A stretch of 64,000 bases of DNA from Arcobacter roscoffensis. GTDB lineage: Bacteria > Campylobacterota > Campylobacteria > Campylobacterales > Arcobacteraceae. The notes beneath the pieces are model-generated. The model was given only the letters and a program-made list of their open reading frames with translations, did no database searches and was not told the origin of the DNA. The stretch covers positions 558,001 through 622,000 of the forward strand of contig NZ_CP100595.1 of assembly GCF_024267655.1 (NCBI RefSeq), in the 5' to 3' direction. Both the position numbers and the translations under genes were made by a program. Shown piece after piece: positions 14,116 through 19,080 of this stretch. The stretch's first letter is position 1. Every line of letters starts with the position of its first letter.

Positions 14116-14427
14116 ATGGCTCAAGAGCAAATTGATGTATTAGTTTTACTTGATGTTGGCGGACTTCAAGATGAAGAAAAATTAGAAAAGTTTTTAAAAA
14201 GAAAGAGTTTCAAAGCAGTTGAGGGCGAAAAACATGTTTATACTTCATTTTCTACTACAACTTTAGTTACTACAAAAGCTTTTATTTTAGAGATTTTTAA
14301 AGAAGGTCTTCAAAAAGCAGGTTTTGAAAATGCAAACTTAGTATTTTTATTAAATGAAACACCTTATCCTCCTCACTATTTTGATAAAGAAACAGGTTTC
14401 TTTGAAGAGTTAAAAGAAGAAAAGTAG
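14116..14427 (+). CDS. Conserved small protein of unknown function upstream of mfd
   Basis: A 103-aa acidic, mixed alpha/beta protein (starts MAQEQIDVLVLLDVGGLQ) without signal peptide, membrane segment or cysteines. The SD AAAAGGA precedes the ATG. Its stop shares one base with the GTG start of mfd, so the two are translationally coupled. No family was recognised; the strand/helix pattern suggests a compact ferredoxin-like fold, which is a guess. Confidence 0.6.
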   Translation: MAQEQIDVLVLLDVGGLQDEEKLEKFLKRKSFKAVEGEKHVYTSFSTTTLVTTKAFILEIFKEGLQKAGFENANLVFLLNETPYPPHYFDKETGFFEELKEEK

Positions 14428-17414
14428 TGAAAAGTATTTACGAATTTTTAAAAAATTTAAAAGATGAAAAAAGATTAAAAGAGTGTGAACTTTTAATTGT
14501 AAATGATGATAAACAAGCCCAAATAGCAAAAGATATTGTCTCTTATCTAGGCTTTAGTCCTTTTGTATTATCTGATTTTAGGGCAAACTTTGGAGATGAT
14601 TTACTTTCTTTTAGTGAAGAAATTCAAGATATAACAAAAGCTTTAAATGGTTTCTATACTTATAAGAAACAAAATAAGATTTTAATCTCGCCTATACGTA
14701 CTATCTCATATGCTATGCCTAAAGCAAAATGTTTTGATAATTATGAAATAGCCTTTGCAGATACTATAAACCTTGAAGAGTTAAAATCAAAACTTTATAA
14801 TTGGGGTTACTATTTTGTAGATATTGTTACCTCAGAAGCAGAAGTTTCTATAAGAGGTGATATTTTAGATATTTGTCCTTTAGGACATGAATTTGGATAT
14901 AGAATTTCTTTCTTTGATGATGAAGTTGAAAGCATAAGAAAGTTTGATATTGAAGATCAAAAATCTTTTAAAGAAGAGATTGAAAGTATTTCTATATCAC
15001 CAGCTTTTTTAGCACTTGATGAGGAGACTTTTGAGGGAATAAACGAACAAGTTCAAAGTGTAGAGTCTGATACTTTTGTAAAAGATATTCACTCTTTAGG
15101 TTTTTGGTATTTAAACGATTTAGGTGAGTATCTTCCTCAAAATATGAATAGTTTTATCACACAAGAAGCTTTATCAGAGTTGGAAGAAGTTTATGTTTTT
15201 GAAGAAAAAAGATTAAATAAAGACAAATTTTTAGCAACTCCTCAAATATATAATTCAAAAATCTACCAAGAAATAGCTCCTGCAAATATAAAAGAGTTTA
15301 TCTCTTTTCATAAGGATAAAAAAGTAAATATTATCTCTTCCTCAGAAGCTAAAGTTAAAGCTTTTGATTTAGAACTTAGTGATACAAATATTAACTATAT
15401 TTTTGAGTCATATATTTTAAATCTTATTGGTGATGATGAAATCATCATTTCTTTAAATAAAGAGATAAAAACAAGAAGAAAGAAAAGAGTAAAACTTGTA
15501 CTTGATGAACTTCAAGAAAATGATTTTGTTGTTCATGAAAAACATGGTATTGGTCAATACAAAGGAATTGAGCCTGTTACAGTAATGGGAGCTAAAAGAG
15601 ACTTTGTTATTGTTATGTATGCAGGTGATGATAAACTTTTAATTCCTGTTGAAAATATTGATTTAATTGATAGATATGTAGCTGATGGAAGTTCTTATGC
15701 AACTGTTGATAAGCTTGGAAAAGGAAGTTTTGCTAAGCTTAAAGATAAGGTAAAAGATAAATTATTTGCAATAGCAAATGATATTATCAAAATTGCAGCA
15801 GCAAGAGAGCTTATAAATGGTGTGAAAATAAACACTGATAAAAAAGCTTTACTTGATTTTCAAAAAGACGCAGGTTTTGATTATACAAAAGATCAATCAA
15901 AAGCAGTTAGAGATATTTTTACTGATTTAAGTAGTGGTCGAGTAATGGATAGACTTTTATCAGGTGATGTAGGTTTTGGTAAAACAGAAGTTGCAATGAA
16001 TGCACTTTTAGCAGTTATTTTAGATGATAAGCAAGCCTTATTTGTTTGTCCTACAACACTACTTGCTACACAACACTTTCATGGAATGCAAAAAAGATTT
16101 GAGCAGTATGGTTTTCCTATGGCTAAACTTGATGGAAAAACTACAAGTAAAGAAAAAAGTAATATCAAAAAAGGACTTGAATCAGGTGAGATTAAACTAG
16201 TTGTTGGAACTCACTCTTTACTTGGAGTTAAAACAAATGATTTAGCTTTAGTTGTTATTGATGAAGAACATAAATTTGGTGTAAAACAAAAAGAGAAATT
16301 AAAAGCTTTAAGAGAGGATGTTCATATTTTCTCAATGAGTGCTACTCCAATTCCAAGAACTTTAAATCTTGCCTTATCCAAACTAAAAGGTATGAGTGCT
16401 TTACTTACTCCTCCAAGTGAGAGATTAGGGGTTAGAAGTTATGTTAAAGAGTACAGTGATAAACTTATAAAAGAGATAATTCTAAGAGAGAAAAGAAGAG
16501 GTGGACAACTTTTCTATGTTCATAATAACATTGCTTCAATAGAAGCCAAAAAAGGCGATATTGAAGAGATTATTCCAAATATCAAAGTTGAAGTTATTCA
16601 TTCTAAGATAAAACCTGCACAAGCTGAAAAAATTATTGATGGTTTTGAAAACAAAGAGTTTGATATTTTACTTGCTACTTCTATTGTAGAATCAGGTCTT
16701 CACTTACCAAATGCAAACTCTATTATTATTGATGGGGCTGATAGGTTCGGTATAGCTGATTTACATCAATTAAGAGGAAGAGTTGGTAGAAGTGATAAGG
16801 AAGGTTTCTGTTATTATGTTGTTGAAGATAAAAAACAAATCACAAATGATGCAGTAAAAAGACTTGTTGCTTTAGAATCAAACTCATATTTAGGAAGTGG
16901 TACAGCTCTTGCACATCAAGACTTAGAAATAAGAGGTGGTGGAAATATCATAGGTGAAGCTCAAAGTGGTCATATCAAACAAATAGGATATGGTTTATAT
17001 CTTAAGATGTTAGAAGAAGCCTTAGCAAGTTTAAGTGGTGAAACAAAAGAAGAAAATAAAACTGTTGATATAAAACTTGCTATTTCAGCTTACTTATCTG
17101 ATGAGTATATTACAGAAGATAGAGTGAGATTAGAGCTTTATAGAAGACTTTCAAAATGTCATGATAAAGATGAAGTTTATGCTATAGAAGAAGAAATGGA
17201 AGATAGATTTGGTAAACCTGATCTTCCAACAAAACAGTTCTTAGAACTTATTATGATTAAAATATTAAGTTTATCTAAGAAAATAAAAACTATCTCATCT
17301 TATGAAATGAATATAACATTTGTAAAAGATGATGACTCAAAAGAGACTATAAAATCACCATCAAAAGATGATGATGATATTATAGCAACTACTTTAAAGT
17401 ACTTAAGAAAATAA
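14427..17414 (+). CDS. mfd: Transcription-repair coupling factor Mfd
   Basis: A 995-aa helicase that removes stalled RNA polymerase and recruits UvrA. Visible parts are a reduced UvrB-like N-terminal region, a CarD-like RNA-polymerase interaction domain (DFVVHEKHGIGQYKGIE, about residue 370), helicase motifs GDVGFGKTEVA (Walker A, about 512), IDEEHKFG (about 608) and QLRGRVGRS, and a C-terminal TRCF domain. It is shorter than the E. coli protein (1148 aa), as is usual in this phylum. The start is GTG. A clean terminator follows at 17419-17443. Confidence 0.96.
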   Translation: MKSIYEFLKNLKDEKRLKECELLIVNDDKQAQIAKDIVSYLGFSPFVLSDFRANFGDDLLSFSEEIQDITKALNGFYTYKKQNKILISPIRTISYAMPKAKCFDNYEIAFADTINLEELKSKLYNWGYYFVDIVTSEAEVSIRGDILDICPLGHEFGYRISFFDDEVESIRKFDIEDQKSFKEEIESISISPAFLALDEETFEGINEQVQSVESDTFVKDIHSLGFWYLNDLGEYLPQNMNSFITQEALSELEEVYVFEEKRLNKDKFLATPQIYNSKIYQEIAPANIKEFISFHKDKKVNIISSSEAKVKAFDLELSDTNINYIFESYILNLIGDDEIIISLNKEIKTRRKKRVKLVLDELQENDFVVHEKHGIGQYKGIEPVTVMGAKRDFVIVMYAGDDKLLIPVENIDLIDRYVADGSSYATVDKLGKGSFAKLKDKVKDKLFAIANDIIKIAAARELINGVKINTDKKALLDFQKDAGFDYTKDQSKAVRDIFTDLSSGRVMDRLLSGDVGFGKTEVAMNALLAVILDDKQALFVCPTTLLATQHFHGMQKRFEQYGFPMAKLDGKTTSKEKSNIKKGLESGEIKLVVGTHSLLGVKTNDLALVVIDEEHKFGVKQKEKLKALREDVHIFSMSATPIPRTLNLALSKLKGMSALLTPPSERLGVRSYVKEYSDKLIKEIILREKRRGGQLFYVHNNIASIEAKKGDIEEIIPNIKVEVIHSKIKPAQAEKIIDGFENKEFDILLATSIVESGLHLPNANSIIIDGADRFGIADLHQLRGRVGRSDKEGFCYYVVEDKKQITNDAVKRLVALESNSYLGSGTALAHQDLEIRGGGNIIGEAQSGHIKQIGYGLYLKMLEEALASLSGETKEENKTVDIKLAISAYLSDEYITEDRVRLELYRRLSKCHDKDEVYAIEEEMEDRFGKPDLPTKQFLELIMIKILSLSKKIKTISSYEMNITFVKDDDSKETIKSPSKDDDDIIATTLKYLRK

Positions 17415-17445: not shown

Positions 17446-17778
17446 TTAATATTTAAAGTTTTTTATTTTGCTACAAGAATTACAGTTTAAGCTACTTTCA
17501 CTATTTGTACATGATACACAAGGGTGATTTGCACACTCTCTTAAATCCCTTTGTTCTGTACAGTTTCTATTTTGTAATGCCATAAATGATACATTTAAGG
17601 CAGGGTCAAAGGCTAGTCTATTGATTATTCTACTAGGAGTGTTTCTATTTTTTGCTAATGCTCTTCTAACATTAGTAGAAACATCAAACTTTAATTCATC
17701 CATTATATTAACATCACTTGTATTTAATGCTAAGCTAATTTTCTCTATTTGACTTTTTACTAGATTATTTGCACTCAT
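17446..17778 (-). CDS. Small LRV/HEAT-like repeat protein with Cys-rich tail
   Basis: A 110-aa protein from the ATG at 17778 (AAGGA lies just upstream; an ATG eight codons earlier has none). The middle, NVRRALAKNRNTPSRIINRLAFDPALNVSFMALQNRN (split here by function, residues about 35-72), looks like two units of a leucine-rich-variant or HEAT-like repeat. The C-terminus is Cys-rich with CANHPC, SCTN and CNSCSK, enough cysteines to hold a metal or 4Fe-4S cluster. Known LRV protein carries its cluster at the N-terminus, so this order is reversed. Function unknown. Confidence 0.65.
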   Translation of the reverse strand: MSANNLVKSQIEKISLALNTSDVNIMDELKFDVSTNVRRALAKNRNTPSRIINRLAFDPALNVSFMALQNRNCTEQRDLRECANHPCVSCTNSESSLNCNSCSKIKNFKY

Positions 17779-17902
17779 AATAAATCCTTTTTTGTATAAC
17801 ACTAATTATAACAGTAGAAAGTATCACAAAAGTAGCATTTTTGATTTTGTTATATTATAAGTTATATAGATAAATTTTAATAGAAATGAAATATAAGTTT
17901 AT

Positions 17903-17944
17903 AAAAAAAAAGAGAAAAGTAAGCACAATAACTTTTCTCTTTTT
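17903..17944 (-). terminator. Rho-independent terminator of the candidate small RNA
   Basis: On the minus strand a perfect 14-bp stem (17944-17931 pairing with 17920-17907) with a 10-nt loop is followed by four more T residues, giving nine T in a row with the stem end. On the plus strand the stem is followed by G, so the minus orientation is favoured. Confidence 0.78.
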
Positions 17945-18019
17945 GAATAAGGAGGAGTTTAAAGGAAGCAAATACTACTGCTTACTCTATAAATAAATTA
18001 ATGGGTTTAATTTATTCGT
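17903..18019 (-). ncRNA. Candidate small RNA with anti-Shine-Dalgarno segment
   Basis: A minus-strand unit of about 117 nt in an intergenic gap. A -10 hexamer TATAAT lies at 18031-18026. The predicted RNA starts with a perfect 10-bp hairpin (arms 18016-18007 and 18001-17992, 5-nt loop), then a 5-bp hairpin (17983-17979 with 17970-17966), then an unpaired stretch containing CTCCTCCTT (17957-17949), then a perfect 14-bp terminator hairpin (17944-17931 with 17920-17907) followed by a T-run of four after the stem. CCTCCTT is the sequence of the 16S rRNA tail, so the RNA could pair with ribosome sites of mRNAs. It could instead be the 3' UTR of the upstream gene at 18073. Confidence 0.6.
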
Positions 18020-18072
18020 ATAGGTATTATAATAAGAATTCATGTATAAAAAGTGTATTTTTTACATGAATG

Positions 18073-19080
18073 TCAATTTTTTTTAAAATTTAATTGACAA
18101 ACTACTTGTGCATGGTCACTTTTAAGAATAGATCCATCATGATTTTCTTCTATATGTTTATTAAATATCTCATAATTTTCTACATTTGCAATAGAATCTT
18201 TATTTTTTTTACTAAAAGTATTACTTATAAAAATAAAATCTAATACATTTCCCTTTCCTATATAGTAGCTTGTAGCTTCTCTTTTTATCTCTTTTTGTTC
18301 TGGATGAGGATTATAGATTTTTCTTTCATGTTCATAATAAGCATCTTTTAAAATAAAAGTCTCTTTTCTATTTTCATCATGATATTTATTATTTGATAGG
18401 GCATCAATAGTAATAGAATGTAATCTATCATTTAAGTCACATAATAGAATATATGGTTTTTCTTTTAGTTTTTTCATATCAAAAAATAGTGATGAAGCTT
18501 CACAGAGTCTTTGTTTTAGAGATTTACTAAAGTTTTCTTTTAATGCTTTTTGAACTTGTTCATTTTTTTGCTCTAAGCTATGCTCTTCTTTAAAAATATA
18601 CTCAAATTCATTTTCTCTATTTGATTTTAGATGACAAACATATATTGTAATAGTTTCTTGATTTTCTAAAGTTATATCAGCTTTAATTGGAGTTCTAGCA
18701 AATTTAAATTTTCCCTTTAAATAATGTTTCTTGACACTTGGCATATGTGTTTTTACATTTTTAATATTTGATATAGGATATTTTGAGGCGAGGGCAACTG
18801 TTGTACTTATATATATTAAGTCATTTTTTTCATGAACTTTTGGTGTGTCTACAGTTACAAAGTATTCAAATCCTAACTCTTGACATAAGTCTTTTAGCGC
18901 TTCTTGAGAAAATACTTCTTGAAAGCCAATCACATCACAGTTCATTGAAGTGATTTGTTCTTTTATCCAAGTTTTTTTTTCTATCCATTGTTCTTGTGTA
19001 AATTTATCTTTTTTTTCATACCAGCTGTAAGGTGGTTCTACAAACTGAAATAGGTTAAATGTTCCGACTCTAATTTTCAT
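18073..19080 (-). CDS. Endonuclease/exonuclease/phosphatase-fold protein
   Basis: A 335-aa protein of the EEP superfamily (DNase I/ exonuclease III/ phosphatase fold). Conserved points are TFNLF near the start, the metal-binding Glu in GFQEVF, CDLNDRLHS, and the terminal SDHAQV catalytic His-Asp pair. No signal peptide is seen, so it should be cytosolic. EEP proteins cut phosphodiester bonds in nucleic acids, lipids or nucleotides; the substrate is not predictable here. It is divergent from the flavoprotein gene at 19129 with a 48-bp gap. Confidence 0.82.
   Translation of the reverse strand: MKIRVGTFNLFQFVEPPYSWYEKKDKFTQEQWIEKKTWIKEQITSMNCDVIGFQEVFSQEALKDLCQELGFEYFVTVDTPKVHEKNDLIYISTTVALASKYPISNIKNVKTHMPSVKKHYLKGKFKFARTPIKADITLENQETITIYVCHLKSNRENEFEYIFKEEHSLEQKNEQVQKALKENFSKSLKQRLCEASSLFFDMKKLKEKPYILLCDLNDRLHSITIDALSNNKYHDENRKETFILKDAYYEHERKIYNPHPEQKEIKREATSYYIGKGNVLDFIFISNTFSKKNKDSIANVENYEIFNKHIEENHDGSILKSDHAQVVCQLNFKKN

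Follow-up and report, generated by a model that had tools for sequence, protein, structure and literature searches.

A candidate small RNA gene with a C/U-rich, Shine-Dalgarno-complementary stretch next to an endonuclease-like gene in Arcobacteraceae

Does a gap without genes in the Arcobacter roscoffensis genome encode a dedicated small RNA (sRNA), and could such an RNA act on ribosome-binding sites? The window, meaning the whole 64,000-nt stretch of DNA that was analysed, is gene-free at 17802-18073. A preliminary description had placed there, on the minus strand, a -10 box, two hairpins of which the 5′ one is a perfect 10-bp stem, an exposed anti-Shine-Dalgarno (anti-SD) stretch and a 14-bp terminator with a T-run, and each of these elements was recovered (Table 1). 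In minus-strand order, the predicted sRNA consists of the 5′ hairpin (AATAAATTAA-ACCCA-TTAATTTATT, 11 bp when the closing G-U is included), the second hairpin, CTCCTCCTTA, the terminator stem and the T-run. Its 5′ end is inferred, 7 nt after the -10 box. The base following CTCCTCCTT is A, giving CCTCCTTA. The 10-nt terminator loop is TATTGTGCTT (UAUUGUGCUU), and CTCCTCCTT lies outside it. The convergent neighbour is, judging from its sequence, presumably mfd.

Table 1 Features of the predicted sRNA locus, in coordinates of the window.
Feature	Position	Strand	Basis or remark
Predicted sRNA, ~117 nt	17903..18019	minus	Fold z -5.4 and Aliarcobacter-model match at 18022-17909
-10 box TATAAT of the putative sRNA promoter	18026..18031	minus	Sequence; same in 21 of the 22 aligned units
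11-bp direct repeat CAC-N8-CAT, candidate response-regulator box	18042..18055	minus	CAC 18055-18053, CAT 18044-18042
5′ hairpin, perfect 10 bp	17992..18016	minus	Arms AATAAATTAA 18016-18007 and TTAATTTATT 18001-17992
Second hairpin	17960..17989	minus	Fold prediction
Unpaired anti-SD stretch CTCCTCCTT, proposed seed	17949..17957	minus	Sequence and fold
Intrinsic terminator, 14-bp stem	17903..17944	minus	Arms 17944-17931 and 17920-17907, T-run to 17903
Endonuclease/exonuclease/phosphatase-like protein, upstream neighbour, synteny anchor	18073..19080	minus	Pfam Exo_endo_phos E 9e-5, just under cut-off
110-aa ORF downstream of the sRNA	17446..17778	minus	Weak LRV-repeat match; between sRNA and mfd
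mfd (presumed), convergent neighbour	14427..17414	plus	Directly after the RNA in several relatives

The window RNA has a minimum free energy of -28.7 kcal/mol, as compared with -12.8 ± 2.9 kcal/mol in dinucleotide shuffles, and none of 200 shuffles was as good. The mean unpaired probability of CTCCTCCTT is 0.86-0.90 across five assumed 5′ ends. The GAGT of the second hairpin (17987-17984) has an alternative partner, ACTC (17958-17955), comparable to a GAGC/GCTC helix of Aliarcobacter. When this alternative helix is forced in the window, the fold is 2.3 kcal/mol less stable (-26.4 vs -28.7 kcal/mol). Copies of CTCCTCCTT number four in the whole genome (3.15 Mb, both strands). A consensus σ70 scan was uninformative (12 found vs 13.7 expected), and the sRNA promoter was not among its predictions. 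A terminator scan missed the window hairpin because the 10-nt loop exceeds the scan's maximum of 8. No Rfam family matched in the window at the gathering threshold, and at E ≤ 5 there were sub-threshold matches only, none of them credible.

When the 151-nt region was searched against 104 family genomes by DNA similarity, 43 gave short, weak matches (E ≤ 0.01), and no second sRNA gene was seen at the five matching loci inspected (L006, L007, L020, L024 and L038). Because the DNA is too diverged for BLAST, neighbour genes were used to find counterparts. Orthologues of the endonuclease-like gene exist in 69 of the 104 genomes (the viral contigs searched hold no relative of it), and the region downstream was read in 49 of these 69. 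An RNA of the same build occupies the same place on the same strand in all eight Poseidonibacter genomes read (genus g19) and in 10 of the 27 Aliarcobacter/Arcobacter genomes read (genus g2; 29 carry the endonuclease gene, and G025 and G031 were left out). It was not seen in the remaining 17 of these 27, nor in any of the 13 genomes read from genera g3, g4, g9 and g17, absence being judged by eye over 330-420 nt. In several relatives the units adjoin mfd directly, whereas in the window the 110-aa ORF lies in between, and no such ORF is found at the syntenic spot in the relatives' loci inspected. This ORF has two more copies in the A. roscoffensis genome and relatives in 35 of the 104 family genomes (own included), several of them at 5-16 kb of contig C1.

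The number of units varies. The window has one at this spot, and tandem units or extra hairpins are found in G091, G001 and G019. In the Poseidonibacter genome G091 (locus L079), four units lie in tandem. All four combine a C/U-rich motif with a -10 box and a 5′ hairpin, and a clear terminator is present in three. The extra hairpins in G001 and G019 carry CCCTCCTAA or ACCTCCTAA in the loop. At L087 and L099, such hairpins lie 3′ of the first unit and before a second terminator; at L087, as read by eye, one more hairpin, whose loop shows TCTCCTAAG, comes before them. Because fast-changing versions occupy the same place in related bacteria, the RNA gene appears real.

Upstream of the units, sequence is conserved at fixed positions. 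In the alignment, 21 of 22 units have TATAAT as the -10 box, and the remaining one has TATACT. A direct repeat, CAC-N8-CAC, with an 11-bp period occupies the -35 place, and its spacing to the -10 box is constant. With the first base of the -10 box as reference, all 22 units have C at -22; C is also found at -24 (18 units), -13 (15 units) and -11 (19 units, the window unit having T there). Repeats of 11-bp period are typical of OmpR/PhoB-type regulators, and the Campylobacter DccR box is a TTCAC repeat with the same period. The sRNA is probably under response-regulator control, and the promoter repeat suggests a regulator of the OmpR/PhoB type. An inverted repeat, TTCATGTA...TACATGAA (18070-18063 / 18046-18039), overlaps the promoter repeat; by eye, it occurs in the window only among the promoters compared.

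A promoter-pattern search over 13 genomes with up to three mismatches returned 31 matches, as compared with 9 for a reversed control pattern. The matches comprise the sRNA promoter in all nine Aliarcobacter genomes included, the promoter of aspA in six genomes of the 13 (L244, L246, L247, L250, L251 and L259) and a site upstream of a TolC-like gene in two (L248 and L249), besides scattered others; the names aspA and TolC-like are presumptive, given from the sequences. The window genome was unmatched at this threshold, and its aspA upstream region (L278) reads CACTTTTGTCATACTT, a similar box. In Campylobacter jejuni, aspA is described as a direct target of RacR (PMC4456614, PMC5293742). A regulon shared by the sRNA and aspA is possible, and we take the similar boxes as a lead, not as proof.

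The stems are kept through compensatory change. In six Poseidonibacter units (counted without P097 and without the four G091 units), both sides have changed in four of the five pairs of the 5′ stem, pairing is kept in 96.7% of cells, and the covariation score was matched by none of 500 shuffles. In Aliarcobacter together with the window (nine distinct rows, A017 and A021 being merged with identical rows), 98.9% of cells in the 5′ helix are paired; three of 16 pairs have changed on both sides, with a score reached by 5 of 500 shuffles. The core AATAAATT/AATTTATT of the 5′ hairpin is common to the window RNA and the Aliarcobacter units. In the second helix of the same set, GAGC/GCTC becomes GAGU/ACUC with two pairs changed on both sides, and in Aliarcobacter the start of the C/U motif lies within this helix.

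A model built from the 10 Aliarcobacter units only (R1) matches the window RNA over its full length at 40.2 bits (E 1e-4 over 183 kb), and this was the best non-training match in that search. Whole-genome noise of R1 reaches 38.9 bits, and a whole-genome search with stricter filters did not report the window's own locus. Taken alone, the R1 match is not overwhelming; synteny, strand and promoter carry the case jointly with it. Over the 104 genomes, 34 had a match at E ≤ 0.1, 10 of these being training loci. Copies of the sRNA elsewhere were considered and rejected, as 20 of the other R1 loci were inspected (L215-L234) and look like terminators or coding ends; among these L221, at a contig edge, did not display its match. 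A Poseidonibacter model (R2), for which the MAFFT alignment yielded no base pairs, was left out of the searches.

Synteny, promoter and stem conservation together support a dedicated minus-strand sRNA gene with a C/U-rich, SD-complementary stretch, bearing out this part of the preliminary description, which had argued for a dedicated RNA from the 5′ hairpin. The marks of a putative sRNA gene are present: an own promoter (by sequence conservation only), a stable fold, a terminator and a conserved place. Alternatively, the region could be nothing but the endonuclease gene's 3′ UTR and its terminator, in relatives shared with the convergent mfd; any stable RNA would then be a 3′-UTR product, and the C/U run would have no role. 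The endonuclease stop is just 41 nt before the -10 box with no terminator seen between them, and in Aliarcobacter T-runs flank the terminator stem on either strand. However, the -10 box and the fixed-spacing repeat are kept in the 22 units, pairing of the 5′ hairpin survives sequence change, and the order of promoter, hairpin and motif repeats in tandem units without a gene between, which makes a mere 3′ UTR unlikely.

How well is the anti-SD stretch kept in this dedicated sRNA? The 16S tail used for comparison is the generally known sequence, not one taken from this genome. For 21 units, the longest run in common with the 16S tail was taken from the 45 nt that precede the terminator; these lengths add up to 120, as compared with 91 ± 4 and a maximum of 102 in 300 shuffles. 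P091c was omitted because its terminator was cut. The window and Poseidonibacter contribute most of this signal, and most Aliarcobacter units singly match no better than shuffles. As judged by sequence, a C/U-rich, SD-complementary motif thus appears to be kept among relatives, but its perfect copy is not. Only the window and one Poseidonibacter unit have the perfect anti-SD 9-mer, with a looser C/U-rich motif elsewhere. The preliminary description had named conservation of the stems and of CCTCCTT in relatives as checks: stem pairing is conserved, and the perfect 9-mer is absent from most relatives. The Aliarcobacter motif, CUCUUCCU, is partly paired (unpaired 0.41-0.87), and that of unit P091b is unpaired at only 0.14. 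The proposed seed is lineage-specific, UAAGGAAGAG in Aliarcobacter and UUAAGGAGAAA in Poseidonibacter, and tandem units keep C/U-rich motifs. A second C/U motif, TTCTCCT, lies in the terminator loop of four of the seven single-unit Poseidonibacter RNAs.

We propose, with moderate confidence, that the locus encodes an Hfq-independent sRNA on the minus strand, with its own promoter, that blocks the 30S subunit through pairing of its seed with SD sequences. Transcription would start from this promoter and end at the intrinsic terminator, and the stable 5′ hairpin and the terminator would protect the RNA ends. The single-stranded CUCCUCCUUA between hairpin and terminator would pair with purine-rich SDs of mRNAs and thereby block 30S binding. 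The length of the seed and the bases beside it would set the specificity, so that mRNAs with strong SDs (AAGGAGGA and longer) would be the likeliest targets. Hfq was not found in any of the 104 family genomes, own included, by a search that was positive in 5 of 14 control genomes, so the pairing would be Hfq-independent; an Hfq-dependent sRNA would call for Hfq in the host.

The sRNA probably masks the ribosome-binding sites of other genes and so silences them. The claim of the preliminary description that many ribosome sites would be blocked is doubtful because few ATG codons are preceded by a perfect AAGGAGGA. This genome has 13 sites at which AAGGAGGA stands 3-11 nt before an ATG, as compared with 18 for the reversed control, with no enrichment. 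Sites before real-looking genes include those of rpmI, a lactate permease gene (Lactate_perm), a LUD-domain gene (LUD_dom) with the full AAGGAGGAG as its SD, a LOG-like gene and a sulfite-dehydrogenase-like gene, where rpmI, LOG-like and sulfite-dehydrogenase-like are presumptive names given from the sequence.

A real sRNA could also act mainly through another part, with the C/U run as one contact among several. One candidate part is the 5′ hairpin loop CCGCGAA, which is invariant across the six Poseidonibacter units although the stem switches, and could serve as a second functional element; it is missing from the window and Aliarcobacter units. At L080-L086, the loop is almost invariant with a changing stem. 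Another candidate is a long pairing with one gene, as a hydrolase-like coding sequence in this genome (L006 1501-1533; genome 2760949-2760981) shows 88% complementarity to a 34-nt stretch of the sRNA that spans hairpin 2 to the C/U run. For the whole RNA, P is 0.11; only for a 42-nt core chosen post hoc does it fall to about 6e-4. The hydrolase has an ortholog in only 1 of 18 sRNA-bearing relatives, with no comparable pairing there. Action mainly through another part is improbable. The hydrolase-like gene as sole or main target was rejected because the pairing is seen in a single genome and was picked post hoc.

That the plus strand does the work, with CTCCTCCTT as the mere complement of a real SD site (AAGGAGGAG) of a small ORF or leader, is very improbable: folding energy favours neither strand (summed -512 vs -523 kcal/mol for the complements), 13 of the 22 units have, on the complement, a start codon 4-12 nt beyond an SD-like run, and the peptides from A001 and A030 resemble each other, but the window lacks a start codon at this spacing and its small ORF was rejected, the peptides vary in length and frame, the A001/A030 likeness is largely within hairpin-1 DNA, the site directly follows the terminator and therefore leaves no room for a plus-strand promoter, and one-side changes in the 5′ helix are six G-U cells vs one C-A cell when read on the minus strand.

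Beyond the proposed minus-strand anti-SD RNA, a wider reading can be offered only tentatively, and we rather doubt that it holds in full. An Hfq-independent array of sibling anti-SD RNAs would be fixed between the endonuclease gene and mfd in three Arcobacteraceae lineages, and would be switched by aspA's response regulator. Its role would be that of a tunable brake, applied to strong-SD mRNAs during shifts in respiration and amino-acid use, with unit number (1 to 4) and seed evolving quickly and promoter and build staying fixed. If confirmed, the RNA would add an anti-SD RNA family to a bacterial family without detected Hfq. It would also provide a natural series, with one to four tandem units, drifting seeds and a fixed promoter, which would let one ask why translation in general is not shut down by an RNA mimicking the 16S tail.

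Anti-SD sRNAs as such are already known (NmsR, NfeR1 and RepG, the last from Helicobacter pylori, which belongs to the same phylum), and by location and sequence the predicted window RNA is a new family of this kind. No characterised sRNA from Arcobacteraceae was found in the open-access literature searched. The survey of Stav et al. 2019 is described as leaving rare Arcobacter-only regions of Arcobacter sp. L unnamed, and the window region may be among these candidates (PMC6429828).

In Neisseria meningitidis, anti-SD sequences of NmsRA/NmsRB mediate repression, and the pairing was tested (PMC5362039). As described there, NmsR has a UC-rich, SD-complementary single-stranded region between stem-loops, a possible parallel to the build of the window RNA, and tandem siblings, which here occur in relatives. 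Unlike the window RNA, NmsR belongs to another bacterial class, has two anti-SD sites and may act in concert with Hfq (PMC5362039). Anti-SD pairing was tested also for NfeR1, which is reported to base-pair at mRNA translation starts, and NfeR1 and alpha-r14 of rhizobia keep the anti-SD while their stems differ (PMC10746234), as the RNAs here appear to do. However, these are described with three hairpins, each with the ultraconserved CCUCCUCCC, whereas the window RNA has one exposed CUCCUCCUU and lacks CCUCCUCCC. RepG is described as pairing with a G-rich leader through a C/U-rich tract that lies in its terminator loop (PMC8295292). The window terminator loop is UAUUGUGCUU, and the flanking genes differ; it is the Poseidonibacter loops with TTCTCCT that hold such a motif at this place. 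The parallel to Helicobacter drawn in the preliminary description thus survives as a likeness in mechanism, not as membership of the same family.
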